A stretch of DNA of 27,277 nucleotides, taken from a virus. Each line of letters starts with the position of its first letter. Within the stretch, counting starts at the first letter, position 1. The position numbers and the translations under genes were made by a program. The stretch spans positions 1 to 27,277 of the IMG/VR virus record IMGVR_UViG_3300035698_020350; one strand, 5' to 3'. This document shows positions 1,323-26,176 of this stretch, piece after piece. The notes beneath the pieces are model-generated. The model did no database searches and was not told the origin of the DNA. It was given only the letters and a program-made list of their open reading frames with translations.

Positions 1323-1835
1323 CTAGTATTTGAGTATGGTGATCTTGTTATTCGAGACAACTATGTCCCCAGAATTTGTTGCAAAATCATTAAACCAACT
1401 CAGTGTCCCATTCAACAAGTATCCCCAAGGCACGAAGAAATGCCTGATAAGATACTGCAACCATTCAAAATGCTTGGTGGCTTTTCCGTCCCATGTCCAC
1501 ACCAAGATACTCCTGGTTACAGTCCATCCACAGCATAAGCTGGGTTGCCCCTTTGGTGGCCGGTCGTAATCAAGCACTCCCGCCGAATATCTGGCTCCCA
1601 TTTTTCCATCCTTGTTATTTGGGTTATTCACGTAGTAAGATCCTTCTTCTCCTAAAGGCAGGCCCACAGCTTCACGTAGAGGATCTGGTCGATTCTGTAT
1701 GGCTTCTCCTTTGAAAGCCATTCTACGTGTGCCACTGAATTTCCTAAGGTATACTCTATGCTTAGGTCGTATTCTAAAAAAGAAGGCAGATTCATCTACA
1801 GATGTTATCTTTAAGAAACCTTCAAAAATAGTCAT
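1323..1835 (-). CDS. Conserved hypothetical protein with EWLxYLI-PWGYxLNG motif
   Basis: A 170-residue protein whose ATG at 1835 overlaps the stop of the XRE gene (ATGA), so the two are probably translationally coupled. No enzyme motif is visible. The middle has a Gly/Pro-rich stretch (residues about 50-95) and the C-terminus reads EWLQYLIRHFFVPWGYLLNG, then short beta strands ending GDIVVSNNKITIL. This end recalls widespread small hypothetical proteins of phages and plasmids in which a helix, a PWGYxLNG turn and a terminal I-V-V-x-N-x-V strand are conserved; that resemblance is from memory and not tested. Function unknown. It is the last gene before the sigma promoter. Confidence 0.6.
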   Translation of the reverse strand: MTIFEGFLKITSVDESAFFFRIRPKHRVYLRKFSGTRRMAFKGEAIQNRPDPLREAVGLPLGEEGSYYVNNPNNKDGKMGARYSAGVLDYDRPPKGQPSLCCGWTVTRSILVWTWDGKATKHFEWLQYLIRHFFVPWGYLLNGTLSWFNDFATNSGDIVVSNNKITILKY

Positions 1836-2104
1836 GCCTTTTGTTTCTGTCTCTTTTTCTTAGATGGAATTTTAGTACCACGAAAGATATCCATTGGTTC
1901 AATCTCCAATGCTTCGGCAATATTATCTATGGTTGCATCTGAGGGCAGCACCAATCCTGCTTCAATTTCGGATAGATTGGGTTGATGTGTGCCTGACATT
2001 TCGGCCAACTCACTTTGGGTCATCTCTCTAAAGATTCTCCATGCATTAATAGTCACACCTATTTTATGCTGTTCTTTTTGCCTGATTTCTTTTGCTGTTC
2101 TCAT
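1832..2104 (-). CDS. XRE/Cro-CI family helix-turn-helix regulator
   Basis: A 90-residue DNA-binding protein. Residues 18-74 form a full HTH_3 (lambda Cro/CI type) domain: INAWRIFREMTQSELAEMSG is the first helix pair, THQPNLSEIEAG holds the recognition helix, and PSDATIDNIAEALEIEPMDI closes the five-helix bundle. The tail is strongly basic (PSKKKRQKQKA). There is no ligand or cleavage domain, so it resembles a small Cro-like or antitoxin-like repressor more than a CI protein. It overlaps the next gene by four bases and follows the 2112-2426 gene. Being inside the late minus-strand array and close to the sigma-like gene, it may set the timing of that module. Its operator could not be identified. 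Confidence 0.82.
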   Translation of the reverse strand: MRTAKEIRQKEQHKIGVTINAWRIFREMTQSELAEMSGTHQPNLSEIEAGLVLPSDATIDNIAEALEIEPMDIFRGTKIPSKKKRQKQKA

Positions 2105-2430: not shown

Positions 2431-3150
2431 TTACTTATATGAAGTTTCAGAGTGCCTGATCCTGTATACACCTGGAAGACTGATTCGTTTTATAGTCCCA
2501 TATTTTTGGCAGAATTTTCGATAAGCGATGTCATCTCGAAAATCACCAAATGGTTTCACAGCAGGTTTTTGCCATTTATCAAAACTATCTAAGTATCCGT
2601 GTTCATACACAAAATCACCCAGCGTTATCTGTACACCACCTATGGCTCTGTGATACACATGATTTTGGAATTCTTTTTTCTTTAAAGAAAGAAGAGAAGG
2701 CTGATCTAAACAAGCTTCCTTTATTGCAGCATCACCATGTTTATGTTTACTATGTATCTGGATAACTTCAGGGAAAATCATCAACACATTATCGGGCCAT
2801 GTGTAATCTGCCAATCTTTCAAAAATCCCTTCACAAAAATAGTAGTCGGCATCACAGAACCAGACGATATCTGCCTTGGATTGCTTGGCTGCTATATTTC
2901 TTCCTATGCTCCTACGTCCTAATTTATTCACAGGAAGTTCAATAGTGGTTAATATGTGGTGGGGCAATTTGTTTGCCTCATACCAACGAATTACTTCTAC
3001 TGTGTCTTTATCATCCTTATTGAAGCACACAACCATTTCTATTTTATGATCTGTGCCACTATGAATGATGGAACTAAGATGAAAATTTAAACAAGTAGCA
3101 AAATGAGGAAGTTCAGTGGCATAGCAATGGGAAACAATCTTTATATGCAT
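2431..3150 (-). CDS. GT-A fold glycosyltransferase (family 2-like)
   Basis: A 239-residue protein with the layout of a family 2 glycosyltransferase: an N-terminal strand (MHIKIVSHCY), a nucleotide-binding half with KIEMVVCFNKDDKDT, a conserved GRRSIGRNIAAKQSKADIVW helix-strand unit, and the metal-binding DAD motif at residues 100-102 (WFCDADYYF). A later RAIGG segment (about residues 168-172) and a GDFRDD acidic motif (about 202-207) fit the acceptor and catalytic parts. The C-terminus has YRKFCQKYG and LPGVYRIRHSE, which recur in the remnant at 4931-5059. The ATG at 3150 overlaps the end of the cytidylyltransferase gene by ten bases. It should transfer a nucleotide-activated sugar in the cytoplasm; donor and acceptor are unknown. 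Confidence 0.75.
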   Translation of the reverse strand: MHIKIVSHCYATELPHFATCLNFHLSSIIHSGTDHKIEMVVCFNKDDKDTVEVIRWYEANKLPHHILTTIELPVNKLGRRSIGRNIAAKQSKADIVWFCDADYYFCEGIFERLADYTWPDNVLMIFPEVIQIHSKHKHGDAAIKEACLDQPSLLSLKKKEFQNHVYHRAIGGVQITLGDFVYEHGYLDSFDKWQKPAVKPFGDFRDDIAYRKFCQKYGTIKRISLPGVYRIRHSETSYK

Positions 3151-3887
3151 TTTTTCATCTCACAAAATTTGACCCAATCGTCCTCAGTGTCGATAGACAG
3201 AGGAAGAGAATTAGTTGCCTTTATGCCATTTATTTGTATGCCTTCTTCTATCCAAGCTAACTGTTCCAAGCTTTCAGCCTCACTGCACGCTGTAGGCTCA
3301 CAGCTACCGGCATTGAACAGACTACGGGCATTGAATCCATAGATCCCACAATGCCCGTAAGGAGTAGCCATAGGGGCTTTTGAAAACCACATCAATGCCC
3401 GTTGAGCATAACCTGAAATTGGTTCTACTTTTTCATTTACAGCAACTTTGGTTATGTTTGAATCAAATCTTTGTTCTACACTTATGTCTGCATAAAGAGT
3501 AATCACATTGGAAGGGTATACTTTACTCAGACTACTGATGATATAAGTTACATCACCCGGACTAACCAAAGGCTCATCTACTTGCCAATTGATTATTATA
3601 TCATGACGAGCACCCATTTGAGCATAAACGGATAAGCACCTTTGTGTCCCGTTCATGATAGTGTTAGGGGTGCCATGGCAGGGTATCTTTTTTTCAGTAC
3701 AAAGGTGGGCAACTTTTATACTATCTGTAGCTACAACAACTTCATGTTGGTGTAAGGCAGATGCCTGTAAGTAGGTCCATTCAAGAAGAGTAAGCCCATC
3801 ACATACTTTGAGGGCTTTGCCAGGAAATCTGCTGCTTCCTTCTCGTACAGGAATCACAATGAGTGCTTTCGAAGAACCCGTAATCAT
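3141..3887 (-). CDS. CMP-Kdo synthetase-like cytidylyltransferase
   Basis: A 248-residue homologue of 3-deoxy-manno-octulosonate cytidylyltransferase (KdsB, Pfam CTP_transf_3), the enzyme that joins CTP and Kdo to make CMP-Kdo. Visible motifs: IPVREGSSRFPGKAL (residues 12-26, CTP loop), VVVATDS (50-56), NGTQR (79-83), NWQVDEPLV (100-108, with the metal-binding Asp104), HCGIYGF, an EAESLEQLAW stretch, and IDTEDDW near the end. The full length matches KdsB. Two motif positions differ from the E. coli enzyme: QGDEP is QVDEP, and SGTER is NGTQR; the segment before HCGIYGF is also shorter. The sugar may therefore not be Kdo. The ATG at 3887 is chosen because AGGA lies six bases before it; a GTG at 3890 is possible. 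It overlaps the upstream gene by 89 bases. Confidence 0.8.
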   Translation of the reverse strand: MITGSSKALIVIPVREGSSRFPGKALKVCDGLTLLEWTYLQASALHQHEVVVATDSIKVAHLCTEKKIPCHGTPNTIMNGTQRCLSVYAQMGARHDIIINWQVDEPLVSPGDVTYIISSLSKVYPSNVITLYADISVEQRFDSNITKVAVNEKVEPISGYAQRALMWFSKAPMATPYGHCGIYGFNARSLFNAGSCEPTACSEAESLEQLAWIEEGIQINGIKATNSLPLSIDTEDDWVKFCEMKKCI

Positions 3888-4395
3888 CACACATCCTTTC
3901 TTCTGATTGTAAGACTAATCTTCTCAAATCATCGTTCCACTCTACGTCATCGTCATGTATTATTTTTGGTATCTTTTTTGTGTGATAGATTTCTCCAGTT
4001 ATCATTTCTATAATCTCATGCAAACAATAAGGCATGTCATTTGAACGGATAACAGTGTCACTTTCATATTGCCGAAACAATCTGCCATAAACATCTGTTG
4101 AATAATTGTAGATGGATTCTACAAATCCAATAAAACTACTCATATCCAAACAAGCAGGAGGAACAACGATAGACATCCTTGGTAAATTGAAAGAAGAATA
4201 CCTCCAACAATTTTCTAGCCATTCACAAGGATGCACCGCTATGGATACTTTGAGGAGATCAGTCTTAGTAAAAAAAGTATATGCATCAAGACAAGGATGC
4301 CATGGATACCCCAATCTCTCCAACATGCTTTTGAAATAAAAAACATCTGAACCAGGAGGAGAGGCAAAGGCAAACAAGTCTTGATAAATTATCAT
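3799..4395 (-). CDS. Unknown protein, possibly sulfotransferase-like
   Basis: A 198-residue protein with no secure family. Faint traits of a sulfotransferase can be read: an N-terminal strand and loop FASPPGSDVFYFKSMLERLG in the place of the PAPS-binding loop, then VSIAVHPCEWLENCWRYSS in the place of the second PAPS motif (normally RxPxxRxxSxY), and a late NDDLRRLVLQSEERMCDDYG like the closing helix of that family. Key Lys/Arg residues are missing, so this is a weak call. The last 28 or so residues lie in the 89 bases shared with the cytidylyltransferase gene, in another frame, and look like added tail. The ATG at 4395 overlaps the methyltransferase stop (ATGA). A short-chain modifying enzyme would fit the cassette. 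Confidence 0.5.
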   Translation of the reverse strand: MIIYQDLFAFASPPGSDVFYFKSMLERLGYPWHPCLDAYTFFTKTDLLKVSIAVHPCEWLENCWRYSSFNLPRMSIVVPPACLDMSSFIGFVESIYNYSTDVYGRLFRQYESDTVIRSNDMPYCLHEIIEMITGEIYHTKKIPKIIHDDDVEWNDDLRRLVLQSEERMCDDYGFFESTHCDSCTRRKQQISWQSPQSM

Positions 4396-4931
4396 GCTTT
4401 TTTCCGAAATACCATTAGGTTATTCTTGATCCCTGATACTTCTCTAAGCTCATTCTCTAAGTCCAGATCATTTACATAACCTAGTTTAGTGAATATACCT
4501 TTGATGTAATCATTGTTACGGCAATTGATGTGCCCTGTTCCCCGTTGTCCTTCAATAGCCCAGGTAAGAATAATCCCTTTAGAATTGTGTATATGAAGAT
4601 TGTTTATGAACGTTGATTCAAATTCTTTTGGAATATGCTCACCAACTTCTATAGACATAACCCAATCAAACACTTCTCCCAAATCAACTGGAACAGACAA
4701 ATCAACAACTTCACAGACTTCGTAATATTTAGATGTATATGGATTACCATCACATCCACGGCAATGCAATCCATTTTTTATGAAGTGTCTTACATAATCT
4801 CCAGCACCGCATCCCATGTCAACAATTGTGCAGCCCTGAAAAAGAACTGATAAATATTCAGCTAAAACTTCGTTGAATCTTTTCTTCCTGTCTTTTGTGG
4901 TTTTCCAATAACCTCTATCAGATATCTTCAT
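4392..4931 (-). CDS. Class I SAM-dependent methyltransferase
   Basis: A 179-residue protein with a Rossmann-type methyltransferase core. Motif I is VDMGCGAGDY (residues 37-46), followed by an acidic strand end at GCDGNPY and a motif IV-like FDWVMSIEVGEHIP (88-101), where the Glu-His pair is typical of Methyltransf_11/23 proteins. Later strands carry GIILTWAIEGQRG and HINCRN. It should transfer a methyl group from S-adenosylmethionine, probably to a sugar given the neighbours. The ATG at 4931 is chosen over a TTG at 4958 because it forms a TGATG overlap with the remnant frame upstream and has GGA eight bases before it. It overlaps the next gene by four bases. Confidence 0.75.
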   Translation of the reverse strand: MKISDRGYWKTTKDRKKRFNEVLAEYLSVLFQGCTIVDMGCGAGDYVRHFIKNGLHCRGCDGNPYTSKYYEVCEVVDLSVPVDLGEVFDWVMSIEVGEHIPKEFESTFINNLHIHNSKGIILTWAIEGQRGTGHINCRNNDYIKGIFTKLGYVNDLDLENELREVSGIKNNLMVFRKKA

Positions 4932-5059
4932 CAATCTATCCACTTTCCTTTTTTCCAATGATCATGAGTAGCTTCAGTATGCCTCAACCGAAACATACCA
5001 GGAAGATCCACAGGCACAATGTTTCCTAGTCTTCCACAATATCTGCGGTAAAAGGTTTT
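4931..5059 (-). pseudogene. C-terminal remnant of a family 2-like glycosyltransferase
   Basis: The 129 bases between two methyltransferase genes hold an open frame of 42 codons without a good start. It lies in the same frame as the preceding methyltransferase, directly after its TGA, and ends in a TGA that overlaps the next ATG (TGATG). The translation carries FYRRYCGRLGNIVPVDLPGM and FRLRHTEATHDHW. It lines up with the C-terminus of the glycosyltransferase at 2431-3150 (AYRKFCQKYG, then LPGVYRIRHSE), sharing 12 of 31 positions by eye. The simplest reading is that a second glycosyltransferase gene once stood here, coupled to the downstream methyltransferase, and lost its front to a deletion. 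Stop-codon readthrough giving an extended methyltransferase is a less likely alternative. Confidence 0.72.
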
Positions 5060-5689
5060 TCATAATTTTTTGTAGCACTCCATATACTTGTGTTTCCAAA
5101 GCAGTTCTATGCTATTTTCTTCATCAAGAAACATATCAATGCCATCACGCACATGGTCCTTCTTAGGAATATCATTTTCCACATCATCAAAAAGCATCCA
5201 GCCTCCTGGCTTTAATAATGGTAGAACTTGTTTAGCATCATCCAAAACAGCAAGGGCTGTGTGATCCCCGTCAATCATGCACACATCGACACTGTTGGCC
5301 CCTCTGATCCCATTGAACCCATGCTTGTGCTGCATGTTACGAAGACCAGTGGCACTGGTGCATTGTTCAAGGAAGCATTTTCCTTGAACAATCCAAGGGG
5401 CCAGATTACTGAAAGCTCTTTTTCTAACATCATCCATGAATCCACTGGTTAATTTTTCGGTTTGTAGCCAAGGATCAATTCCTGCCCCCCTACTGCCATT
5501 GACTTTCAGTACATTCTGAAGCATCCATGTCATAGACATGCCTTCAAACACACCTATTTCAAGGTAAGTGATTTGCTTGGAAGACCATTCAGGATAAATG
5601 TATTCACGAAAAGTTCCCAAATTTCGTTTGCGGAACCATCCTCTTGTGAATTCTTTTCCTTTGGCATCCACATCCATTAATCTAGCCAT
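5060..5689 (-). CDS. SAM-dependent methyltransferase (Methyltransf_24-like)
   Basis: A 209-residue methyltransferase of the type often found with sugar and cephamycin-like modification (Methyltransf_24/CmcI-like). Motif I is YLEIGVFEGMS (residues 42-52), the acidic end of strand 2 is GIDPW (70-74), the conserved VCMIDGDHT is at 136-144, and LKPGGWMLFDDV at 159-170 carries the late-strand DD motif that in this family can bind a metal. The start at 5689 has AAGGA six bases upstream. The gene overlaps the preceding glycosyltransferase gene by eight bases. Its stop is followed in frame by the glycosyltransferase remnant. O-methylation of a glycan is the likely role, with the substrate unknown. 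Confidence 0.75.
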   Translation of the reverse strand: MARLMDVDAKGKEFTRGWFRKRNLGTFREYIYPEWSSKQITYLEIGVFEGMSMTWMLQNVLKVNGSRGAGIDPWLQTEKLTSGFMDDVRKRAFSNLAPWIVQGKCFLEQCTSATGLRNMQHKHGFNGIRGANSVDVCMIDGDHTALAVLDDAKQVLPLLKPGGWMLFDDVENDIPKKDHVRDGIDMFLDEENSIELLWKHKYMECYKKL

Positions 5690-6575
5690 GGTTATTCCTT
5701 TTCGGTTTTTTCAAAAGGGCAGTCAGTTTATGTATACGTCTATTGGGAATTGATTGATGCCATTCTCCAAGACCACCTACATTTTCAGCAATACATTTTT
5801 GATAGATGGGCCACCACAAATCAACTCCTTTTTGTGTTTTTTCAGGACGAACATTGCTGTCTCCGTGATAATGCCTTACCACCACATCGTCATCTAACAA
5901 ATTTGATGGCTGGTACTTTGGTACTGGTGAGCAATTGTAATTGCCATTCCTTCCAAAAACTGACATTGCATAAGGAAACAACACTTGCAGAATATTGAGA
6001 ACCACTTCATCTGCTATGAACAGATCTTTTTTTATACGAAAAGTAGTGTCATACCATTTTTCTAATACAGGAGAATCAGGCAATGCTGACCATACTCCCC
6101 CATTCAAAGAAGGGAAAGAAACCGATAAGGCTTTGTTTACCATATCTTTTGGTATGAAGTCAAACTCCAGCAATCCCTTTATCCTTTTAGCAGTCAATCC
6201 ATTATTGGTAAGCCAATCATTGAATTGTGTGGCAACAAATGTAGAATTGTTCAAAGCACCAAACAATACCTCCAATGAACCATGGATTGTGGTATCAGCA
6301 TCTAAGTAAATCAACTTGTCTACTGTTTGTTCACGAGCGAGATCTATCTTATCCAAAAACTGTGAATTCTTACCACGGTATTTGGGATTTCTAGGAAGAA
6401 CCGTGACAGACAATCTCCCATCTTCTGCAATTCTTTTTGCAATAGGATATGACTCTTCCCAAGCGTAAACAAATACTTCTCCATCGTAATGCTGGCGAAG
6501 GGTGTGTAATGAACAAACTAGATAAGGCAAATGGGCTGATCCACTCATCAAGTACATGATTCTATTTTTTGACAT
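5682..6575 (-). CDS. GT-A glycosyltransferase (family 8-like)
   Basis: A 297-residue nucleotide-sugar transferase. The DxD motif is LIYLDADTTIHGSLEVLF (Asp92 and Asp94), with the pattern of family 8 and related retaining enzymes in which the donor metal is held by DAD. Upstream are KNSQFLDKIDLA, a typical lid helix, and downstream are SLNGGVWSA (the family's FNxG-like acceptor loop) and a C-terminal HYHGD that parallels the HxxGxxKPW-type metal ligand. The C-terminus is basic (KLTALLKKPKRNNHG). Two ATGs stand side by side; 6575 is preferred since AGGAG is six bases upstream. It overlaps the FkbM-type gene before it by 14 bases and the next gene by eight. Confidence 0.75.
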   Translation of the reverse strand: MSKNRIMYLMSGSAHLPYLVCSLHTLRQHYDGEVFVYAWEESYPIAKRIAEDGRLSVTVLPRNPKYRGKNSQFLDKIDLAREQTVDKLIYLDADTTIHGSLEVLFGALNNSTFVATQFNDWLTNNGLTAKRIKGLLEFDFIPKDMVNKALSVSFPSLNGGVWSALPDSPVLEKWYDTTFRIKKDLFIADEVVLNILQVLFPYAMSVFGRNGNYNCSPVPKYQPSNLLDDDVVVRHYHGDSNVRPEKTQKGVDLWWPIYQKCIAENVGGLGEWHQSIPNRRIHKLTALLKKPKRNNHG

Positions 6576-7272
6576 CATATTCTCCTAAAGATTTTTCCCA
6601 TCGTGCAGGCTCATACAAACAAGAGCAAAAATTTGGTCTGAATAAATTAGAGCGTACATAGATAGCATCATACTGCCCAGCACCACTACGCATTGTGTGA
6701 ATCCATTGTCGGAAAAATCCAAAGCCAGCCAAAAGATCATGGACTTCTAATGGACTGCCCCATTTACTACTTGGTGGATTTGATGTCATTTCAACATTAA
6801 CCACATCGACATGCTTCATGTAGGATTCAGCACCCTTTAAAACTAGAGCTTCTGCTCCTTCACAATCTAGCCATAAAAGCTGTCTTTTTCTCACATGTGC
6901 CCAAGGGTATTCCTTCATCAATGAATCCAATGTATCTATGGGAACATCAATAGGAGTAGATTTTCTTGCCTCATGTGAAAACAATGATGAGCCATCCTTG
7001 TGATTTCTTTTGGAGTATAGTGGAATCACACCCTTATGATCACCAACGGCTGTTTGAACTAAACAGCCAGGATAACGGCTTTTGATTGCTTTGAATATAA
7101 CTGGATGAGGCTCAAATCCAATAAAAGAAACCCCTTTCCAATCTTCTTTGAGAACATCTACTTCATGGAATTTTTCCCCTACACCAACTTGTACTATCAG
7201 GTCAGCTTCCCAGCCAATACGATCTGCCATAAAGCTAACACTAACTCCACTTCTCCGTAATATTCTACTCAT
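6562..7272 (-). CDS. FkbM-family methyltransferase
   Basis: A 236-residue protein with the hallmarks of FkbM methyltransferases: VQVGVG (residues 27-32) as a modified motif I, FEPHPVIF (53-60) ending strand 2, TAVGDHKG (74-81), PIDTLDSLM (111-119), and the signature LLWLDCEGAEALVLKGAE (132-149) followed by a VVNVEM strand. FkbM proteins O-methylate sugars and polyketides and are common in phage and surface-polysaccharide gene clusters. The motif I Gly pattern is GVG rather than the usual DIGAN, which may matter for cofactor binding. The ATG at 7272 follows the previous stop by one base, so coupling is expected. Confidence 0.82.
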   Translation of the reverse strand: MSRILRRSGVSVSFMADRIGWEADLIVQVGVGEKFHEVDVLKEDWKGVSFIGFEPHPVIFKAIKSRYPGCLVQTAVGDHKGVIPLYSKRNHKDGSSLFSHEARKSTPIDVPIDTLDSLMKEYPWAHVRKRQLLWLDCEGAEALVLKGAESYMKHVDVVNVEMTSNPPSSKWGSPLEVHDLLAGFGFFRQWIHTMRSGAGQYDAIYVRSNLFRPNFCSCLYEPARWEKSLGEYDVKK

Positions 7273-7273
7273 A

Positions 7274-8056
7274 TCAACCTTCCATCACTAATTTAGAATG
7301 CTTTCGAATGTTATGCATGGTTCCCCAGTGTTCCCACGACTTGTCTTTCATGCTGGTGCGAACCACTGGATATCCTAGTCTCTTAGCAACATAGAACATG
7401 TACCCATCTTGTGAAGCACATGGCATATGGAACCTACCGTCTGATTGTCTAGCTAATCGAACACACAATTGGGTAAACTCAGTTTGAAAAAACCCACACC
7501 AAGATATGATCCGTTTGTGTTTTAGTCTTCCTGATTCTGGATCAGGGACAAGATTCAAAGGATCACTTTTTGGGAACACAGGATTGTTATTGGCCCATTC
7601 ATCCAAATTTAGCATTTGGTCTTTGGGTTTTGTGAATCCCCAAGGTTGGGATATTATTGCAGGATTACCCTCAAACCATTTATCTTCTATCCAATTATCG
7701 TTTCCTGTGGCAATAGTATCTGTGTCAATCTTTAACCAATAATCTGTGTACACATATTCTGCTGCCATATAAACAAAACCAGAAAGCATTTTGCATCTTT
7801 GGGGAGCAGTGAATTTTCCCTCATCATCCTTGTAAGTGTGATTGATAGCTGTTTCTGAATAAACACCAATACGCAAATCTGGATGATCTATTGCTTTGTG
7901 TACATCTTCGTATGTCACTTGTGTTGGATCATAAAAAATCAACATAGGGTGATCAAGGAGAGATGGTTTGTGTTTCTTCCATGTTGGCCAAGTGTGTGTC
8001 AATTGTTCTAAATGCTTTTTATCAACACCTACTACTAAAGTGTAATCAACCTTCAT
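7274..8056 (-). CDS. GT-A fold glycosyltransferase, unclassified
   Basis: A 260-residue protein that reads as a glycosyltransferase: an N-terminal strand (DYTLVVGVD), a helix with a hydrophobic strand (PMLIFYDP), then YWLKIDTDTIATGND with the DTD metal motif at residues 111-113. An invariant-looking RCKMLSGFVYMAAEYV helix precedes it. The second half has IISWCGFFQTEF and HMPCASQDGYMFYVAKRLG, suited to an acceptor pocket, and a WEHWGTMHNIRKH end. It is not a clear match to a single CAZy family; GT8- or GT2-like are both possible. The start at 8056 has AGGAGGATTAATAA before it, an excellent site. It overlaps the cupin gene by 11 bases. Confidence 0.65.
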   Translation of the reverse strand: MKVDYTLVVGVDKKHLEQLTHTWPTWKKHKPSLLDHPMLIFYDPTQVTYEDVHKAIDHPDLRIGVYSETAINHTYKDDEGKFTAPQRCKMLSGFVYMAAEYVYTDYWLKIDTDTIATGNDNWIEDKWFEGNPAIISQPWGFTKPKDQMLNLDEWANNNPVFPKSDPLNLVPDPESGRLKHKRIISWCGFFQTEFTQLCVRLARQSDGRFHMPCASQDGYMFYVAKRLGYPVVRTSMKDKSWEHWGTMHNIRKHSKLVMEG

Positions 8057-8429
8057 TTATTAATCCTCCTATTGAATATCGTTCTATGTCCTCATCCAAT
8101 TCCGTCCAATAAAATTCTAGAATTTCACATGGATATAATGCTTTGAATTGATGCATGATATTAGGAGGCACATCACAAATCTGCCCTTCTTCAAGAGTAG
8201 TAGTATCAATATCGCCACCGACCGTTGCCCATTGGTGTACTTCCAGTGTTCCATTTATGACTAAAAACCGATTCCATTTATTGCAATGAGTATGCTTACT
8301 TGAGTACCCTCCTTTTTTGATGTGCAAAAGGTGGGCTTCTGTGTTATTCAAAGCAAAAATCAATTGGGTCTTTCCCCATAATTTGCCTTGAACAGTTCCT
8401 ATGGTTGGATGAACGTTATCGTACAACAT
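8046..8429 (-). CDS. Cupin-fold protein
   Basis: A 127-residue single-domain cupin. Motif 1 is GGYSSKHTHCNKWNRFLVIN plus Gly60, which has the G-x5-H-x-H spacing with His46 and His48, but the usual metal-binding Glu is replaced by Asn53. Motif 2 is GQICDVPPNIMHQF (82-95) with His93. So three of four usual metal ligands remain. Small cupins in surface-sugar clusters often act as mannose-6-phosphate isomerase or sugar epimerase relatives, and this one's neighbours point to a nucleotide-sugar or sugar-phosphate step, but the fold alone does not tell the reaction. The ATG at 8429 has AGGAG five bases upstream. Confidence 0.75.
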   Translation of the reverse strand: MLYDNVHPTIGTVQGKLWGKTQLIFALNNTEAHLLHIKKGGYSSKHTHCNKWNRFLVINGTLEVHQWATVGGDIDTTTLEEGQICDVPPNIMHQFKALYPCEILEFYWTELDEDIERYSIGGLINEG

Positions 8430-8437
8430 CTCATCTC

Positions 8438-9487
8438 CTAGTAATATTCAGAATCTTCTTGTTTTGCTTGTTTGCTTCCTTCATACCATCCTTCAAGATT
8501 AGGATGTTTTTCTACAATCCCTTGAGAAAAATCCAGAGCATCTGCAAAGGGGACATAATCAAAAGCCTTTAAAGAAGAACCTTCATAACAATTGAAAATC
8601 TCCACACCAAACTTGTCAAATACCCCTGCTTGACGCATTGTGCAAAGCCATTCATCTACAACTGCAAATTGACTGTTGTTTCCATTGGATGCTCCTTTGT
8701 CCCTGGACTGTGCAAATGAATATCCTTTTTCAGGACTCATCTTGAAATCAACACCAACAAGAAATATGGTTCTGGCACCAAGGTAATAAAGTAACCGTAA
8801 CCCAAGGAGCATGGTGCAAACTGTCTTTTTTTCTCCAGTCTTTTTTACACCAGCATTGTGATTTCCCCAACAAGCTCCATTTGCTAAGAAGAACCCATTA
8901 TCTGGTGTCAACCATGACTCTCTGGAGAATCCCCAAACATTAGGACATTCAAAGGTTTTACGCTTCATCTTCACAAATTCTTTATTCCTTGTGATCCTGT
9001 GTAAATTGGCCCTACCTCCAGACAATTTTGGGGATGGGGCAAACTTCATGATCCCAGGATCAAGCCAAATAGAATGGCTAAATTTACAGGGAGGATCAGA
9101 GCAGACGAACGCCTGTGGCTTTAATCTTGGATGCCCACCCATGTTATTGATGGCTAGGCTGAAATGACCACGCTCTGAGAGTCGTTCTAAGGGCATTCCG
9201 TTAGTAGAGGGACCACCAGCCAGTAAAAAGGCTGTGCCGCCTGCCAGAAGGCCACGGAGGCTGTCTGTGGGGACTTTACGCCCAGTGGTCACATAGAGAG
9301 GATCAGCCCATTTTGAACTGAAATCTGGATCAGTTATTTCTAACCTTGTTTTGCAAGTCTCACATACAAGTATTTTTTTACCCTTACCTGTAAGCTTGCA
9401 ATTTTTACTATGATGATTACATAAGTAAATTACTTCATTTTCAGATGTGACGCCTTCTTCTTCCTTTGACCTGTAAACACATTCCAT
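8438..9487 (-). CDS. DUF115/Maf-like glycosyltransferase with N-terminal zinc ribbon
   Basis: A 349-residue protein of two parts. Residues 20-48 hold Cys23, Cys30, Cys42 and Cys45 with nearby His, a likely zinc ribbon. From residue 86 it reads AFLLAGGPSTNGMPLERL and then FSLAINN, the Rossmann-like entry of DUF115 proteins and of CMP-sialic-acid transferases, whose signature is G-x-GPS. A later strand TIFLVGVDF (about residue 240) is the second conserved block of that fold. In bacterial flagellin systems DUF115 (Maf) proteins transfer CMP-activated nonulosonic acids to Ser/Thr. That matters since a CMP-sugar synthetase homologue lies downstream. The ATG at 9487 is used because GGAG is seven bases upstream; GTG at 9493 is possible. 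Family assignment is by motif only. Confidence 0.58.
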   Translation of the reverse strand: MECVYRSKEEEGVTSENEVIYLCNHHSKNCKLTGKGKKILVCETCKTRLEITDPDFSSKWADPLYVTTGRKVPTDSLRGLLAGGTAFLLAGGPSTNGMPLERLSERGHFSLAINNMGGHPRLKPQAFVCSDPPCKFSHSIWLDPGIMKFAPSPKLSGGRANLHRITRNKEFVKMKRKTFECPNVWGFSRESWLTPDNGFFLANGACWGNHNAGVKKTGEKKTVCTMLLGLRLLYYLGARTIFLVGVDFKMSPEKGYSFAQSRDKGASNGNNSQFAVVDEWLCTMRQAGVFDKFGVEIFNCYEGSSLKAFDYVPFADALDFSQGIVEKHPNLEGWYEGSKQAKQEDSEYY

Positions 9488-9518
9488 TCCCACTCTCCCA
9501 TTGCACTGCCTTGGCAGA

Positions 9519-10286
9519 CTACCATTTATTCAGGGGACAATCCTCGGTTCCCATTTTAGCTTTGTTGAAAACAGCCCAGCCTGACAAATTAACATTACAT
9601 CCACAAATACTGGATACCCCTTTTTCTTTATTGAATTTTGTGCAAGCATTAGTTTTGCATATTTCGTATACCCTGGCAACCTCAGCAGAAGACCGGGTTG
9701 GCCATCCTTTTTTGGCCCATTTCAATAATGCTACTGCATAATGTCCTGATTTATCCACAAAGGAAGGTTGCTCAGTCAAATCAGCTAATTTCTTTGCCGA
9801 TTTCAATACAAGCTCTTTTTCTTCATCGGTAAGAGGTAACTTATTAGTGGTACTCTCATTAGCCAATTTTGTGATTATTATCAGCCCTATTTTGAAAGAT
9901 GCTTTTACATGTTCTATGGATGTGTTCTTTATGTTTTTTCGACAAGAGATAAGGCATTTAATTCTACCATTTGATATCCGACCAATTATTTCATCTGCTA
10001 CTTCTCTTAAATGTTCCTGCTTTTCTTTTTTCTCTGTATCAATTTGAAAGGTTTCTATCAAAAGCAATAAACCAGATGGAACAACTATTAATTGTTGTGT
10101 GTCTGTTAATTTTTCTTCTATCTCTTGTGTAAAATCCACAATCCATCTTTGTAGGACGGCTTTTGAATAAGGGCGTTTACTTGTAGCTGTAAAAGCTATG
10201 TAGTAACTAAGTACATTTTCATGGACTTTGCATAATCCATGCACCAGTGCATGAGGTTCTTCTGTTGTTTTTAAATTTGTATTCAT
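9519..10286 (-). CDS. Unknown protein with C-terminal Cys motif (CxGC...CPxxKW)
   Basis: A 255-residue protein of two parts. The first 190 residues are helical and hydrophilic with one hydrophobic stretch (LIVVPSGLLLLIETF, about residue 65-79), which looks buried rather than membrane-spanning. The last 55 residues contain CKTNAC, then ICGC, then TEDCPLNKW. The spacing of five cysteines and the terminal CPxxKW recall a small cysteine-rich module (DUF6171-like) seen in phage and bacterial proteins, probably metal-binding; this is from memory. The ATG at 10286 lies three bases after the stop of the serine-rich gene and has no clear ribosome binding site. It bridges the tail genes and the sugar cassette. 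Its function is unknown. Confidence 0.55.
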   Translation of the reverse strand: MNTNLKTTEEPHALVHGLCKVHENVLSYYIAFTATSKRPYSKAVLQRWIVDFTQEIEEKLTDTQQLIVVPSGLLLLIETFQIDTEKKEKQEHLREVADEIIGRISNGRIKCLISCRKNIKNTSIEHVKASFKIGLIIITKLANESTTNKLPLTDEEKELVLKSAKKLADLTEQPSFVDKSGHYAVALLKWAKKGWPTRSSAEVARVYEICKTNACTKFNKEKGVSSICGCNVNLSGWAVFNKAKMGTEDCPLNKW

Positions 10287-10289
10287 TTT

Positions 10290-11789
10290 CTATACAGAGC
10301 AAGGTTCATCAGGTGGAAAAAATTCTACTCCCCAAATAAGACCAGGGCCACAATCAATGGTCGCCCAGTTGCCTTGTCCACCGATTTCATATCCTAGTGT
10401 TATTAGGATCGCAACTTCTAATTCAGTGGGACAGTCGCAATTTGGTACATGAGAACAATTCTCAGAATCAAAAATATACTTTCCTAAAGCCTCAATCCAT
10501 TCATAACAACAAACACCTCCACAGTAAATAACAAAGCTACTGTCTGGTGATGAATCGCTTGAAAGACTTTGGGATGAATAACTTGAAGCACTTGAGATAC
10601 TTGAGCGACTCGAAGAACTATCAGATGAAGAACTCGTAGAACTGACAGAACTTGCAGAACTTAAAGAACTCGTAGAACTGACAGATGAAGAACTCGTAGA
10701 ACTGACAGATGAAGAACTCGACCGGCTTGACCAGCTTGACCAACTTGAATCACTTGACATCTCATGGGAACTATTAGAGCCTATGCTTTCTATATCAGGA
10801 GGGTTCCAACCTGATGTGCAACCACACTTATCAGAAGTATTGATTTGGATGTAAGCCCGGAACAAATCTACCATTGTCACACCAAAACCAAATGCTGGAG
10901 AGGTCATTAATACTTGGGATATACTATACCCACCACCAGGAATGGTTGCTTGTAATTCTTGGGTTCCTTCTACGTGAAAAAGAAAATGGAACCAACTTAT
11001 TTCTGGTCCATAACTTATATTTATACTGTCGCCATGTACAAAGATAACTTCACGATCCATACAATCAGAAACTACACCACCAACAGATGACTCACCATCT
11101 GGTGTATAATACAGTCCACTATATGGTCTTCCTTTCCAGTCTCTTGCCTTGCTTGGTCCTGGAAATCCACGATAACTATTACTGCCGTGATAAAATACTC
11201 CTGTATTATAGGAGACAACATGTGGAAACATGTGTCCATGCCATATATCACCTGTGTATATTATAGGCCAATATCCAGTTGAACCACTGACAGGATGTGT
11301 TTCCCATACAGAAATCCTTAATACTGGTGTATGTACTTCAAGAGATAATGCTGAAGGAAGATAGAATTCAAGCTTGATTTTTTTTGTCATGTCAAATCCA
11401 ATATAGATGCAACCTTTTCTATTATGGTAATTGACAGGATTTTCTATGTGGGAATTTGTCGAAGGATCATAGTAATAGCTATCCCCTTTACAAACCGCTT
11501 TCTCAAGTTTGTACTGCCCATATAAATCTGGTCCTTTTTCTGACATAAATCCATTTAATGATATCCATATGGATTCAGGCTCACACCCTATACAAAAAGT
11601 CGATCTTCCTGGATTATCATCCATCACTGAATGCAGACAACCATATCCACTCTTTGTAAGAGTATGCCCATACGGCCAAGGATCTACTTCTAAATCACAA
11701 TCACCTATGGGTGTAATGGTAGCAGTAGCTGGATCTCCGGGTTGTGAGCCATGTAAGATATGAGTTTGATCACAATATAATGGGGGCAT
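10290..11789 (-). CDS. Virion protein with central serine-rich tract
   Basis: A 499-residue protein in three parts. Residues 1-330 are beta-rich with many Gly, Tyr, Trp and Pro and look like an extracellular or virion domain. Residues about 335-415 are almost all Ser with Thr, Val, Ala, Asp and Trp inserted (for example SSDSSWSSWSSRSS). The last 80 residues are cysteine-rich (CGGVCCYEW, CSHVPNCDCP) and may be cross-linked or bind metal. There is no signal peptide, so export as part of a particle is more likely than secretion. It sits after the tape measure and tail genes and before the sugar cassette, which suits a tail tip, fibre or baseplate role. The serine tract is a candidate for O-glycosylation by the enzymes downstream. 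Confidence 0.6.
   Translation of the reverse strand: MPPLYCDQTHILHGSQPGDPATATITPIGDCDLEVDPWPYGHTLTKSGYGCLHSVMDDNPGRSTFCIGCEPESIWISLNGFMSEKGPDLYGQYKLEKAVCKGDSYYYDPSTNSHIENPVNYHNRKGCIYIGFDMTKKIKLEFYLPSALSLEVHTPVLRISVWETHPVSGSTGYWPIIYTGDIWHGHMFPHVVSYNTGVFYHGSNSYRGFPGPSKARDWKGRPYSGLYYTPDGESSVGGVVSDCMDREVIFVHGDSINISYGPEISWFHFLFHVEGTQELQATIPGGGYSISQVLMTSPAFGFGVTMVDLFRAYIQINTSDKCGCTSGWNPPDIESIGSNSSHEMSSDSSWSSWSSRSSSSSVSSTSSSSVSSTSSLSSASSVSSTSSSSDSSSSRSSISSASSYSSQSLSSDSSPDSSFVIYCGGVCCYEWIEALGKYIFDSENCSHVPNCDCPTELEVAILITLGYEIGGQGNWATIDCGPGLIWGVEFFPPDEPCSV
10622..10720. repeat. 24-bp direct repeat inside the serine tract
   Basis: On the plus strand a 24-base unit beginning cagatgaagaactcgtagaa occurs at 10622-10645 and again at 10682-10705, and its first 15 bases follow at once at 10706-10720. 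The intervening 36 bases are diverged copies of the same theme. The unit is eight codons long, so gain or loss keeps the frame. It encodes Ser-Ser-Val-Ser-Ser-Thr-type repeats on the minus strand. A second short tandem array of nine-base units (cttgaccgg, cttgaccag, cttgaccaa) follows at about 10725-10755. Confidence 0.85.
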
Positions 11790-11804: not shown

Positions 11805-12386
11805 TTATGTTTGACTACTTCTGCTACTGGTACTAGTAGAGGAACTGCTACTTAGACTAGATGTACTACTACTTGTTGAAATATTACTGGAACTACTTGT
11901 AGTAATACTAGAACTAGTGGAACTTGAACTTGAACTTGATTCTGCATCCAAAGAAAATCGCTGATAAGCACCGTAACGAGTGTCGTACATTCCTCCCACT
12001 GATCCCATTTCCTCAAAACCTACATTGTAATCATAATCACTATCGTTTTCTGTTATGACTAACCATATTCTTATACAAACATGGTTTTCTCCCCCAGCAT
12101 CTTCATGAACACAAGTTGGCGAAGAAACCCAAACACAGGCATACTTTGTCAGTATTCCAAATGGATCATACACCCAAGGAAAATAAGATACATATGGTCC
12201 TGTTACAAAATAAGTGCCGTTGACGGATGCCCCTTGAGTAGTTTTTACTAGGGAACCAGCTATGTCTATCTGAAAACATTTACTAGGTGGAGTATCCCCC
12301 TCTCCACAATACATACAATCACCGTGGGGAATGACAGAACAACAATTATTTACACAAAAACCAAATTTACCAAGGGTGTTTACCAT
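11805..12386 (-). CDS. Virion-region protein with C-terminal serine tract
   Basis: A 193-residue protein. The first 145 residues are beta-rich with cysteine clusters near the N-terminus (CVNNCCSV, CMYCGEG) and a Trp/Tyr-rich middle. From about residue 147 the chain is Ser/Thr only apart from a few residues, ending SSRSSQT. The same last four residues, SSQT, close the serine tract of the protein at 18375-19157. The start is uncertain: the ATG at 12386 comes two bases after the upstream stop and is chosen on position, while an ATG at 12422 would overlap the upstream gene by 35 bases. It lies in the tail-protein block and is probably a minor tail or surface protein. Confidence 0.58.
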   Translation of the reverse strand: MVNTLGKFGFCVNNCCSVIPHGDCMYCGEGDTPPSKCFQIDIAGSLVKTTQGASVNGTYFVTGPYVSYFPWVYDPFGILTKYACVWVSSPTCVHEDAGGENHVCIRIWLVITENDSDYDYNVGFEEMGSVGGMYDTRYGAYQRFSLDAESSSSSSSTSSSITTSSSSNISTSSSTSSLSSSSSTSTSSRSSQT

Positions 12387-12387
12387 T

Positions 12388-13176
12388 TTAACAAGAAGCC
12401 CATGTAATATACCAAAAACCATCCCCAAATAAAGTGATACCTACTACGGTTCCCTCTCCTATTAAGCCTTGATGATATGAAGGGGATTTTACTTCAAAAG
12501 TATTCCCCCCAACACTTACTGTGGAATCAAGGCTTCCTATAGCATTTGACAACATAGTTCCCCAATAATGTGTTGGAAATTGTGTAGGCACCCATATATC
12601 ATTTACTTTTTGTACTATGCAAAAAGTATCTTCACAAATACCTCCAGTCTCCATTGATGGAGGAGGAACTACATAATCAATAGTGCCTGTTATCTCCCAC
12701 TTAAAATTGCTTCCTTCATATTCGTTTCTATGGTGAATATTGAAACCACCATATTCAGCAGAAACAGACAAGAAGTTTGAAAATTTTCCACAGTAAGAAG
12801 TGACTCCTGTGGAAAGAGGAATCAAAACACCACGCTGGGGATCATACCTAGCCACAACCCTTTGGTCAATTTCAAATGTGGTTTTGATGGACCTAGCATC
12901 TAAAGTATATTCTGTTGAACTGAAAGCCCAGCCATCATTTAGTCTGGTGTCATCATCCAAGTCGGAATTGTGATACATCAATTTGCAGAGATAAAGGCCA
13001 TTTTCTCCTTCATCATCTGTATTGATTTTTTTATTAGTTATTACAGCCAAGCAAATCACGCCTGCTGGATTGACTCCTTTCATATCTGTGAGAAAAGCTC
13101 GGTGTCCTAATTTATTTAGGTGCTTTTCAGCAGAAAGTATATCACCAGCTTTAACATCTTCCCAACGGCTTTTCAT
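12388..13176 (-). CDS. Hypothetical tail-region protein
   Basis: A 262-residue protein that I cannot place in a family. It opens with a helix (WEDVKAGDILSAEKHLNKLG) and then becomes beta-rich, with many Gly, Asn and Asp turns, which is common among phage tail and baseplate proteins. There is a proline cluster (DYVVPPPSMETGG) near residue 170, and a repeated-looking C-terminal strand region that ends FWYITWASC. Its ATG overlaps the stop of the previous gene (TAATG), so the pair is coupled. Position two genes after the tape measure suggests a distal tail, baseplate or fibre-linked part, but nothing in the sequence proves it. Confidence 0.55.
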   Translation of the reverse strand: MKSRWEDVKAGDILSAEKHLNKLGHRAFLTDMKGVNPAGVICLAVITNKKINTDDEGENGLYLCKLMYHNSDLDDDTRLNDGWAFSSTEYTLDARSIKTTFEIDQRVVARYDPQRGVLIPLSTGVTSYCGKFSNFLSVSAEYGGFNIHHRNEYEGSNFKWEITGTIDYVVPPPSMETGGICEDTFCIVQKVNDIWVPTQFPTHYWGTMLSNAIGSLDSTVSVGGNTFEVKSPSYHQGLIGEGTVVGITLFGDGFWYITWASC

Positions 13177-17921: not shown

Positions 17922-18326
17922 TTAGCCTGCTGTGTGTGTATATTCTCCATCAGATCCAAAGTTGGAAGACCAACCAAGGACTTCTTCCGTATCAATATTC
18001 ACAGTGATACTGAAATCGGAACACAACGCCCTTGCGAACGAGTAAGAAGGGCCACCATTGGACAAACAAATCAAGGGAGAAGCCATGTCTCCAGGACTGA
18101 ATAGATCACAGGCATCAGTAGCACCTGTGTCATACTTCCCTTCTACATCGGCTGTAGCACCTCGTCTGCCTGCTGCTCGATTTGTGTACCCAGCACCATC
18201 GCTGTCTCCCCACTCACTGGACGAATCCAGGGTTTCGTTTACAGCCCATTGGGTAATACGTGAAATAGTAATACCATCATAAGAAACTGTGCCGCCACGA
18301 CCTGTTACTGCTGTAGCCGAACTCAT
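17922..18326 (-). CDS. Major tail tube protein
   Basis: A 134-residue protein with the features of a short tail tube subunit: a Gly-rich opening (TGRGGTVSYDG), the ISRITQWAVNET strand, a central GRRGATADVEGKYDTGAT loop segment, the hydrophobic PLICLSNGG, and a closing FSITVNIDTEEVLGWSSNFG strand pair. Size and strand pattern agree with small tube proteins of siphophages. It lies directly before the chaperone pair and the tape measure gene, the standard place. The start at 18326 has AGGAGG eight bases upstream. The terminator after it fits a gene expressed more strongly than its followers. Confidence 0.78.
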   Translation of the reverse strand: MSSATAVTGRGGTVSYDGITISRITQWAVNETLDSSSEWGDSDGAGYTNRAAGRRGATADVEGKYDTGATDACDLFSPGDMASPLICLSNGGPSYSFARALCSDFSITVNIDTEEVLGWSSNFGSDGEYTHTAG

Positions 18327-18374: not shown

Positions 18375-19157
18375 TTAAGTCTGCGAACTGGCTGAACTAG
18401 AAGACAGGCTACTAGAACTTGCACTACTAGTTGAATTGAATGAACTCCAGGAACTAACAGAACTGGAACTGGGTGAGCTACTGGAACTAGTACTGATCGA
18501 ACTAGAGGAAACAGAGGAAGAGGAACTAGAACTCACCGAACTAGAACTGAAAGAGCTACTGGAACTAGTACTACTTGAATAAGAACTACTTGATGATTCA
18601 TCCGAATCATCTCTTGCCAACAAGTACATGGAGTAAACAACATCTCCACCATTTGCTGTCAATTTAACGGTATGGCTAGAAGCATCGGTAACCACAAAAC
18701 CTGTTTCAGCCAATTGGGTCTTTGTCATCATTCCTTGACCAAGTAACCCTCCTCCATTACTGGCTGTATGTGTTCCTATGGGAGCCCATCCATTGGCAGC
18801 CCCTGGTTCAATTTCAAGTGTGCCATCGGCTGTAACAGCGTTCTCATTAACAAAAACAATTGATACTATTTCTGCTATGGTGATCAGTTCGCCTAGACCA
18901 TCTCGTCCAACACCAACACCAATATCTTCACCAGCTAAATCATACAGATCAATCGTATCAGAAGCACCACTTAAGATAGTGGCTGATTTTCTCTGCCATG
19001 CTCTGTTTGCTTTGTTGGCACTAACCCCATTAGACAGTGTTTTGGAATAAGATAGATTGGGATGAGTGATACTAGAAATAGAAGCATCATCCAAAGTGTT
19101 TTGATATGTGCCTGTTATCGTTAATTTGATTTTAGGACTTGACAATGATTGAGACAT
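18375..19157 (-). CDS. Virion protein with C-terminal serine tract
   Basis: A 260-residue protein with a beta-rich domain of about 185 residues followed by a 75-residue Ser-rich tail that ends SSSSASSQT. The front half has NKANRAWQRKSATILSGASD, IDLYDLAGEDIG and EPGAANGWAPIG. This order (an NxxW-x-x-R segment, a ..LDLYDLAG.. segment, a long Val/Ile strand, then a Gly-Ala-Ala-x-x-W/F loop) is typical of a phage structural family usually found beside the tail tube, whose exact place in the particle is not known to me. The tail shows no cysteine and no membrane span. It is one of four such serine-tagged proteins here. It starts 18 bases after the tail completion gene. Confidence 0.68.
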   Translation of the reverse strand: MSQSLSSPKIKLTITGTYQNTLDDASISSITHPNLSYSKTLSNGVSANKANRAWQRKSATILSGASDTIDLYDLAGEDIGVGVGRDGLGELITIAEIVSIVFVNENAVTADGTLEIEPGAANGWAPIGTHTASNGGGLLGQGMMTKTQLAETGFVVTDASSHTVKLTANGGDVVYSMYLLARDDSDESSSSSYSSSTSSSSSFSSSSVSSSSSSSVSSSSISTSSSSSPSSSSVSSWSSFNSTSSASSSSLSSSSASSQT

Positions 19158-20943: not shown

Positions 20944-20999
20944 CTTGCAACGGGAATGGTTACGTAGATAGCAAACATTCTACGTGATTTGTAATCCTA

Positions 21000-21028
21000 T
21001 TGCACAAGGCAACGGGATGTGGTATAGT
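21000..21028 (+). promoter_or_regulatory. Extended -10 promoter for the homing endonuclease
   Basis: On the plus strand TTGCAC (21000-21005) is followed after exactly 17 bases by TATAGT (21023-21028), five of six bases of the -10 consensus, preceded by TGG as in an extended -10 promoter. The start point would be near 21035, about 40 bases before the ATG at 21074. The -35 match is poor (three of six), which extended -10 promoters tolerate. Confidence 0.5.
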
Positions 21029-21073
21029 CCTAGTGAAGGGGCATTCAGCACCATTCAATGGAAAGTGCAAATC

Positions 21074-25467: not shown

Positions 25468-26019
25468 TTACATTTCATCAATAAACGAACTGCTACTGGT
25501 GGATACACTGGAACTAGAAGTAGAACTGGGAGATGAACTAGAAGTACTCTTAGAATAACTAGAAGGACTTGAACTAGAAGTACTATTAGAATGACTAGAA
25601 CTAGAATCGCTCATAGAAGGACTCGAACTACTTGAAGTGCTTTCTGATGCAGAACTGGCACTAGAAGTAGAACTAGATTGAGAAGAACTGGAAGCAGAAC
25701 TAGAACTAGAAAGATCTTCCATTGCATAAACGGAAAGACGATCACCAGTCTTGGGACCAGGGAATTGCAGTGATCCTGTATTGAAGTTCAAGATATCAGG
25801 AACACTTGATTCTCCTGTAGACTTGTAATCGGTGAGCACAGCTTGGTACAAAACATTGTCAGCAAGAGTTACTACATAACTCTCTACAGTACCAACATCT
25901 CTAGCAAAAGTAGCACTCAAAGGAAGGCTGTCATCACCAGCCCTTGCATGACGTGTGACCACTAGAGCACGATTAGACAAACCAACACTAGGACCAAAAT
26001 GGAAAGTTACTTTTTTCAT
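25468..26019 (-). CDS. Virion protein with C-terminal serine tract (head region)
   Basis: A 183-residue protein of which the first 100 residues form a beta-rich domain (ALVVTRHARAGDDS, ESYVVTLADNVLYQAVLTDY, FPGPKTGDRLSVYAMED). The strand pattern could be an Ig-like or fibronectin-like fold. The next 75 residues are about two-thirds Ser with Thr, Ala, Pro, Asp and Asn, and the chain ends FIDEM. It lies upstream of the protease, so it is likely a head decoration protein or a head fibre. The ATG at 26019 is chosen because GGAG lies six bases before it; a TTG at 26031 overlaps that site. Codons for Ser alternate between TCN and AGY kinds. Confidence 0.65.
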   Translation of the reverse strand: MKKVTFHFGPSVGLSNRALVVTRHARAGDDSLPLSATFARDVGTVESYVVTLADNVLYQAVLTDYKSTGESSVPDILNFNTGSLQFPGPKTGDRLSVYAMEDLSSSSSASSSSQSSSTSSASSASESTSSSSSPSMSDSSSSHSNSTSSSSPSSYSKSTSSSSPSSTSSSSVSTSSSSFIDEM

Positions 26020-26176
26020 ATCAAACTCCAAAAGAAAACTGCGTATAAATCGACAACCTGAAATAGGTCACGACTTACCGCAGTTCACTAAGGACACCTA
26101 GATAAGCTTTTACAACGAATGTCACTGATTAAACAGTTTACCTCACTACTCATTGCCTGAAAATAGTGATTTTCGA

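Follow-up and report, generated by a model that had tools for sequence, protein, structure and literature searches.

The window analysed here, a complete IMG/VR virus record of 27,277 bases (IMGVR_UViG_3300035698_020350), carries a cassette of glycosyltransferase (GT) and sugar-modifying genes downstream of morphogenesis genes whose products bear long poly-serine (poly-Ser) tracts. This cassette is likely to encode a cytoplasmic system with which the phage O-glycosylates the poly-Ser tails of its own virion proteins, and a dense coat of sugars made by the phage itself probably covers the particle. This reading is carried by the tracts themselves, by the families and folds of the enzymes, by the direction that tract genes and enzyme genes share, and by the conservation of tract together with cassette across a diverse lineage. 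A first-pass annotation of this DNA had proposed such a system, and its interpretation is partly supported.

Serine tracts of 49–80 residues lie on four proteins of the morphogenesis operon, as the first-pass annotation had described, and every open reading frame (ORF) named there was recovered in place on the minus strand:

25468..26031, minus strand: Ser-tail protein 1, head side of the operon; tract at residues 106–185 (80 residues), window positions 25477–25716
18375..19157, minus strand: Ser-tail protein 2, flanked by the probable tail terminator and the tail-tube gene; tract at residues 184–260 (77 residues), window positions 18378–18608
11805..12428, minus strand: Ser-tail protein 3, tail end of the operon; tract at residues 159–207 (49 residues)
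10290..11789, minus strand: Ser-tract protein 4; tract at residues 345–406 (62 residues), followed by a Cys-rich C-terminal part

The layout of the last protein, a tract followed by a Cys-rich part, is resembled by L192:7185-9212. No Ser tract occurs in the remaining window ORFs, 200 shuffles of the remaining window proteome yielded none, and none was seen in 174 kb of control sequence, drawn from four stretches of phage-collection records of which one is probably bacterial chromosome. Serine codons in the window tracts are split between the TCN and AGY boxes (96 versus 90), so the tracts are not a nucleotide microsatellite. Across 125 distinct proteins, Ser makes up 75% and Thr 5% of the tract residues, the serine codons number 4977 TCN against 4632 AGY, and tract lengths range from 26 to several hundred residues. 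Because the tracts are kept despite this variation in length, with both codon boxes in use, selection seems to act on serine itself. The 18375 homologue carries a tract of at least 26 residues in 61 of 63 relatives (median 78), and the 25468 homologue carries a tract in all 43 relatives tabulated. Exceptionally long tracts are also seen, with 682 residues in an 864-residue protein (L108:17019-19613) and 493 residues in a second 18375-family copy (L038 and L039:13938-16604); tandem 18375-family copies, each Ser-tailed, occur at L050:8451-9983 and L040:8010-9898.

Downstream of these genes and in the same direction, as also noted in the first pass, lies the sugar cassette. Its members are listed with their presence in 20 long cassettes of the lineage, which were chosen by the presence of the Maf-like gene:

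8438..9493, minus strand: Maf/DUF115-like glycosyltransferase, proposed initiator of the Ser O-glycan (predicted fold, weak sequence support)
8046..8429, minus strand: cupin-fold protein (Cupin_2 2.3e-5; phrog_7851 2.5e-12; WbuC-family cupin 1.3e-5); 19/20 cassettes
7274..8056, minus strand: GT-A-like glycosyltransferase, core; D111-x-D113 invariant; 20/20 cassettes
6562..7272, minus strand: FkbM-family O-methyltransferase (PF05050 6.2e-14; TIGR01444 1.1e-15); 15/20 cassettes
5682..6578, minus strand: GT8-like glycosyltransferase, core (PF01501 0.012, very weak); DAD 93–95 invariant; 20/20 cassettes
5060..5689, minus strand: Methyltransf_24 methyltransferase (1.5e-16); 18/20 cassettes
4392..4958, minus strand: Methyltransf_23-like methyltransferase, variable part (2.4e-5, under the curated cut-off); 8/20 cassettes
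3799..4395, minus strand: sulfotransferase-fold protein (model pLDDT 80.7); 19/20 cassettes
3141..3890, minus strand: KdsB-family CMP-sugar synthetase, CMP-Kdo type (PF02348, CTP_transf_3, 2e-26); 16/20 cassettes
2431..3150, minus strand: GT2-family glycosyltransferase, core (PF00535 1.5e-6); D100-x-D102 invariant; 20/20 cassettes

The product of 8438–9493, the proposed initiator, appears Maf-like by fold and marginal by sequence. The first-pass DUF115-like call is thus clear in the predicted structure but only marginal against PF01973 (MptE-like/DUF115; E 0.11, 12.7 bits), and because this score falls below the cut-off of 34.6 the protein is termed Maf-like rather than a Maf member. Its AlphaFold2 model is of moderate confidence, with a predicted local distance difference test score (pLDDT) of 74.6 and a predicted template modelling score (pTM) of 0.81. 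Between the DUF115/Maf and sialyltransferase families considered in the first pass, Maf ranks first: the top VIA-align match is Magnetospirillum Maf (5mu5; Z 13.6, 208 residues, root-mean-square deviation 4.6), followed by MptE (8sd5, Z 10.6), the GT42 enzyme CstII (1ro8, Z 10.5), HPPK and GT29 sialyltransferases, with the MptE, GT42 and GT29 enzymes spanning Z of about 8–10.6. SteA (Z 9.5) and thiamine pyrophosphokinase (Z 6.9) also match, and the remaining folds lie below 5. By sequence, the protein matches the phrog_4603 'sialyltransferase' family at 2.8e-6, and its profile finds at best only GT42 sialyltransferases in the PDB (E 0.26–1.2), through a short, non-significant match around a G-x-D motif. 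This motif and a GGPS motif are invariant across the relatives. A second, remoter Maf-like gene is seen about 15–18 kb upstream of the tail-tube gene in two contigs (G016:C1:15801-16607 and G017:C1:24791-25609).

The three GT-A glycosyltransferases of the first-pass annotation (7274, 5682 and 2431) each retain across relatives an invariant DXD, the metal-binding signature of GT-A enzymes; 7274 has no match in Pfam, PHROG or NCBIfam-type profile libraries, nor in the PDB by sequence profile. The three methyltransferases and the cupin listed there all obtained profile matches, those of 4392 and the cupin being weak. Additionally, the product of 3141–3890 has a KdsB subfamily as its best NCBIfam match (4.5e-46; 157 bits versus a cut-off of 193) and matches the sequence of a solved KdsB structure in the PDB at 1.9e-22, compared with merely 0.0026 for PseF. 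Sequence similarity therefore places it nearer KdsB than PseF or NeuA, which would fit 3-deoxy-D-manno-octulosonic acid (Kdo) and not a nonulosonic acid. For the earlier idea of a cytidine monophosphate (CMP)-activated sugar, a Kdo-type cytidylyltransferase is a better fit than a nonulosonic (PseF/NeuA) one.

The protein encoded at 3799–4395 was overlooked in the first pass and has no Pfam or NCBIfam match. All 50 of the VIA-align matches listed for its model are sulfotransferases or contain that domain (Z 9.0–10.1), and profile-linked proteins of relatives match Sulfotransfer_2 at 2.5e-7 to 2.7e-17. Some relatives keep an intact 5'-phosphosulfate loop (PPRTGTTWF), while in the window copy this PRTGTTW-type loop is degenerate (PPGSDVFYF). 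Because the canonical loop is missing, activity of the window copy as a 3'-phosphoadenosine-5'-phosphosulfate (PAPS) sulfotransferase is uncertain, and it is called sulfotransferase-fold only. Five contigs have further genes of this family inserted in the tail module, with the tail-tube gene on one side and the 17169 homologue on the other; in L059 and L060 a methyltransferase accompanies them:

L028:4409-5137; L059:1709-3141; L060:10751-12183; L069:11360-12214; L119:11574-12347: extra sulfotransferase-family genes

Relatives, gathered by scans with tail-tube, Maf-like, capsid and GT alignments, form a diverse lineage of uncultured contigs; no close relative was found among named phages. Of 50,697 phage records searched by tblastn, none matched the Maf-like, 7274 or 5682 proteins and six matched KdsB; one of these six, from Acinetobacter, resembles bacterial chromosome, judging from the adjacent genes. 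When 84,980 prokaryote genomes were scanned with the tail-tube and Maf-like alignments, no match was confirmed, and thus no prophage or host was found. Within the lineage the cassette keeps its order, running from the Maf-like gene through the cupin, 7274, FkbM, 5682, variable methyltransferases and other genes to the sulfotransferase fold, KdsB and 2431. Always present in the 20 long cassettes are 7274, 5682, 2431 and, by selection, the Maf-like gene; such a constant core with changing decorating enzymes would fit a diversifying surface glycan. The compared loci that show tail genes have these first and then the cassette, on the same strand. One contig, G018 (95,123 bases), has the tail-tube gene near one end and the cassette near the other, which probably makes it a nearly complete, circularly permuted genome of about 95 kb.

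Co-occurrence of tract and cassette was counted in the 25 contigs with 12.5 kb or more of sequence past the tail-tube gene; the cassette-lacking contigs G008, L061, L020 and others, which end before or near the expected place of the cassette, are not part of the count. A Maf-like gene is present in 24 of the 25. The 18375 homologue is visible in 22 of these carriers, and every one of the 22 has a tract of at least 40 residues. The sole contig without a Maf-like gene is G019, in which the 18375 homologue ends in nine serines; in its kin L127 and L128, the 25468 homologue carries mere stubs of 8–9 serines. G019 had been a candidate for a relative free of sugar genes, which was ruled out by Pfam matches to one GT4 and three GT2 genes in the place of the cassette, and it serves as a negative for the Maf-like cassette only. 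Furthermore, tract and core cassette are both retained in two deep relatives, in one of them with the tract on a different protein. Specifically, in G043, whose capsid protein is 37% identical to the search query, the 18375 homologues are tailless and a 91-residue tract is instead carried by the product of the gene immediately upstream of the cassette; the likewise remote L201 has an 82-residue tract just before its tail-tube homologue, followed by the core cassette. The pairing of cassette and Ser tails raised by the first pass thus holds among relatives.

Assembly of phage heads and tails takes place in the cytoplasm, so neither export nor a lipid carrier would be needed, and none was recognised in the cassettes. 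Known Maf enzymes attach CMP-activated nonulosonic acids to Ser/Thr of flagellin, and the Clostridium botulinum enzyme (CbMaf) moves both N-acetylneuraminic acid (Neu5Ac) and Kdo onto these residues (PMC11339370). Taken together, this biochemistry and the site of assembly point to a pathway in which the Maf-like protein would attach the first sugar to a tract serine. The likeliest donor would be a CMP-activated 3-deoxy-keto acid, with Kdo a plausible first sugar, supplied by the KdsB-family enzyme or by the host; in cassettes lacking KdsB the donor would need to be host-made. The three DXD glycosyltransferases would then extend the chain, the methyltransferases would methylate the glycan, and the sulfotransferase-fold protein may sulfate it, giving a dense, mucin-like, lineage-variable sugar coat on the particle. 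We infer that the tract proteins are part of the virion, that serine is the acceptor and that the steps follow in this order, with the coat serving shielding, solubility or adhesion. The most specific version, in which a large uncultured phage lineage uses its own Maf-like transferase to cover the poly-Ser tails of head and tail proteins with a mucin-like O-glycan brush that starts from Kdo and is methylated and sulfated, is offered more tentatively, as a possibility with the balance tilted against its every detail being right.

Several points weigh against glycosylation of the tracts by this cassette. The glycan itself is deduced from genes, and the Maf-like model is of moderate confidence with marginal sequence support; a Foldseek search with it found no match below E 0.001, its list being topped, non-significantly, by mammalian sialyltransferases. 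Known Maf enzymes use folded flagellin as acceptor, not poly-Ser. KdsB is absent from 4 of the 20 long cassettes. The negative side of the co-occurrence is one genome, G019, with another set of glycosyltransferases, and the contigs share ancestry, two pairs being near-identical, so they are not independent trials. Finally, a Maf-like domain also occurs in proteins of about 810 residues in jumbo contigs (L099:9860-12304, L100:9863-12292 and L101:1945-4374); the 171-kb jumbo contig checked has neither Ser tract nor cassette, and because the domain occurs uncoupled there, a Maf-like fold alone does not imply Ser tails.

Alternatively, the cassette could remodel host surface sugars, for example lipopolysaccharide core or capsule, so as to exclude superinfection or alter a receptor, with the Ser tails as unrelated spacers. 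Surface polysaccharide loci typically hold GT, KdsB, methyltransferase and sulfotransferase genes as well, and GT42 enzymes, which sialylate lipooligosaccharide, are among the matches of 8438–9493 (9c08 and CstII). However, no flippase, polymerase, polyprenyl-phosphate transferase or multi-pass membrane protein was recognised in the cassettes, where hydropathy at a permissive cut-off gave no more than single hydrophobic segments. Nor was the membrane flippase and polyprenyl-phosphate glucosyltransferase pair of Gtr-type conversion recognised in the core cassettes, and the 2431 product matches a GtrB-like phrog at merely 5.5e-4. In addition, the cassette forms the last part of the tail operon, with which it shares its direction, and it stays paired with a tract even on a different protein; together these points make host-surface remodelling unlikely. 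The same persistence of the pairing, and the long tracts in all 22 Maf-like contigs with a visible 18375 homologue, weigh against the idea that virion proteins are glycosylated outside the tracts, which would then be unmodified flexible spacers or adhesive brushes. Poly-Ser is by itself a flexible linker, and G019, without a Maf-like gene, and its kin keep stubs of 8–9 serines, in line with that idea; we regard it as quite unlikely. Modification of DNA bases by glycosylation or methylation to evade restriction is very improbable: phage glycosyltransferases that decorate DNA are known (cited in PMC12619734), but the core set has no base hydroxylase or other base-priming enzyme, and its Maf-like, KdsB-like and sulfotransferase-fold proteins fit sugar-on-protein chemistry better.

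Apart from a single plus-strand HNH gene, the genes of interest form one long minus-strand run in which the tape measure is followed by Ser-tract proteins and then the cassette:

23553, minus strand: capsid protease
21891, minus strand: major capsid protein
19685, minus strand: tail completion protein
17922..18326, minus strand: probable major tail (tube) protein, lineage marker; identity inferred from gene order relative to Bacillus phage Silence
14082, minus strand: tape measure

No terminator-like site is present on the coding strand from 10290 to 8438, and the Rfam and tRNA searches returned no match. Between Ser-tract protein 4 and the Maf-like gene lies 9519–10286 (minus strand, 255 residues), the C-terminal 70–80 residues of which are found again ahead of the cassette in L001, L003, L204 and L109. 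The HNH endonuclease gene (20984–21877, plus strand; phrog_3377, 2e-51) adjoins the capsid gene and likely encodes a homing endonuclease; a homologue occurs at position 3008 of L198. Sigma-factor-like and HTH repressor-like genes (639–1214 and 1832–2104, minus strand) lie shortly past the cassette.

Virion glycosylation has been shown in very few, cultured phages, with no general rule for spotting it. In the present lineage of uncultured contigs, an obvious poly-Ser acceptor is inherited along with a conserved set of enzymes. If the proposed tract glycosylation is true, virion glycosylation would become predictable from sequence, the cassette would offer a compact Ser O-glycosylation toolkit testable in E. 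coli, and some environmental phages would be sugar-coated, which may alter adsorption, stability and recognition. Glycans on a phage capsid can hinder its recognition by antibodies (cited in PMC12691614). Glycosylation of phage virions is already known, and no earlier description was found of a Maf-type cytoplasmic system with poly-Ser acceptors in a virus; the full-text literature, covering few subscription papers, gave no account of serine-rich or poly-Ser phage glycoproteins of this kind.

Mycobacteriophage virion glycans are made by phage-encoded glycosyltransferases. They are borne by the C-terminal ends of the capsid and tail-tube subunits (Freeman et al. 2023, as cited in PMC12619734); the available text mentions no Maf-like initiator, KdsB, sulfotransferase or poly-Ser tails, and the phages belong to another lineage. 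GT42 bacterial sialyltransferases such as CstII resemble the product of 8438–9493 in fold (Z 10.5), but the CstII substrate is lipooligosaccharide, unlike the protein acceptor proposed here. Streptococcal serine-rich repeat adhesins likewise combine very long Ser tracts with a neighbouring GT cluster, which glycosylates them in the cytoplasm; they use GtfA/GtfB and accessory Sec export, whereas neither a GtfA/GtfB nor an accessory Sec gene turned up among the families found here. Closest in predicted fold are the Maf flagellin O-glycosyltransferases, with which the proposal shares a Ser acceptor and a CMP-sugar donor, and of which CbMaf accepts Kdo. The phage protein differs from them in its length of about 350 residues, in scoring far under the Pfam cut-off, in usually being accompanied by a KdsB-family enzyme and in its proposed acceptors, the poly-Ser tails of virion proteins.

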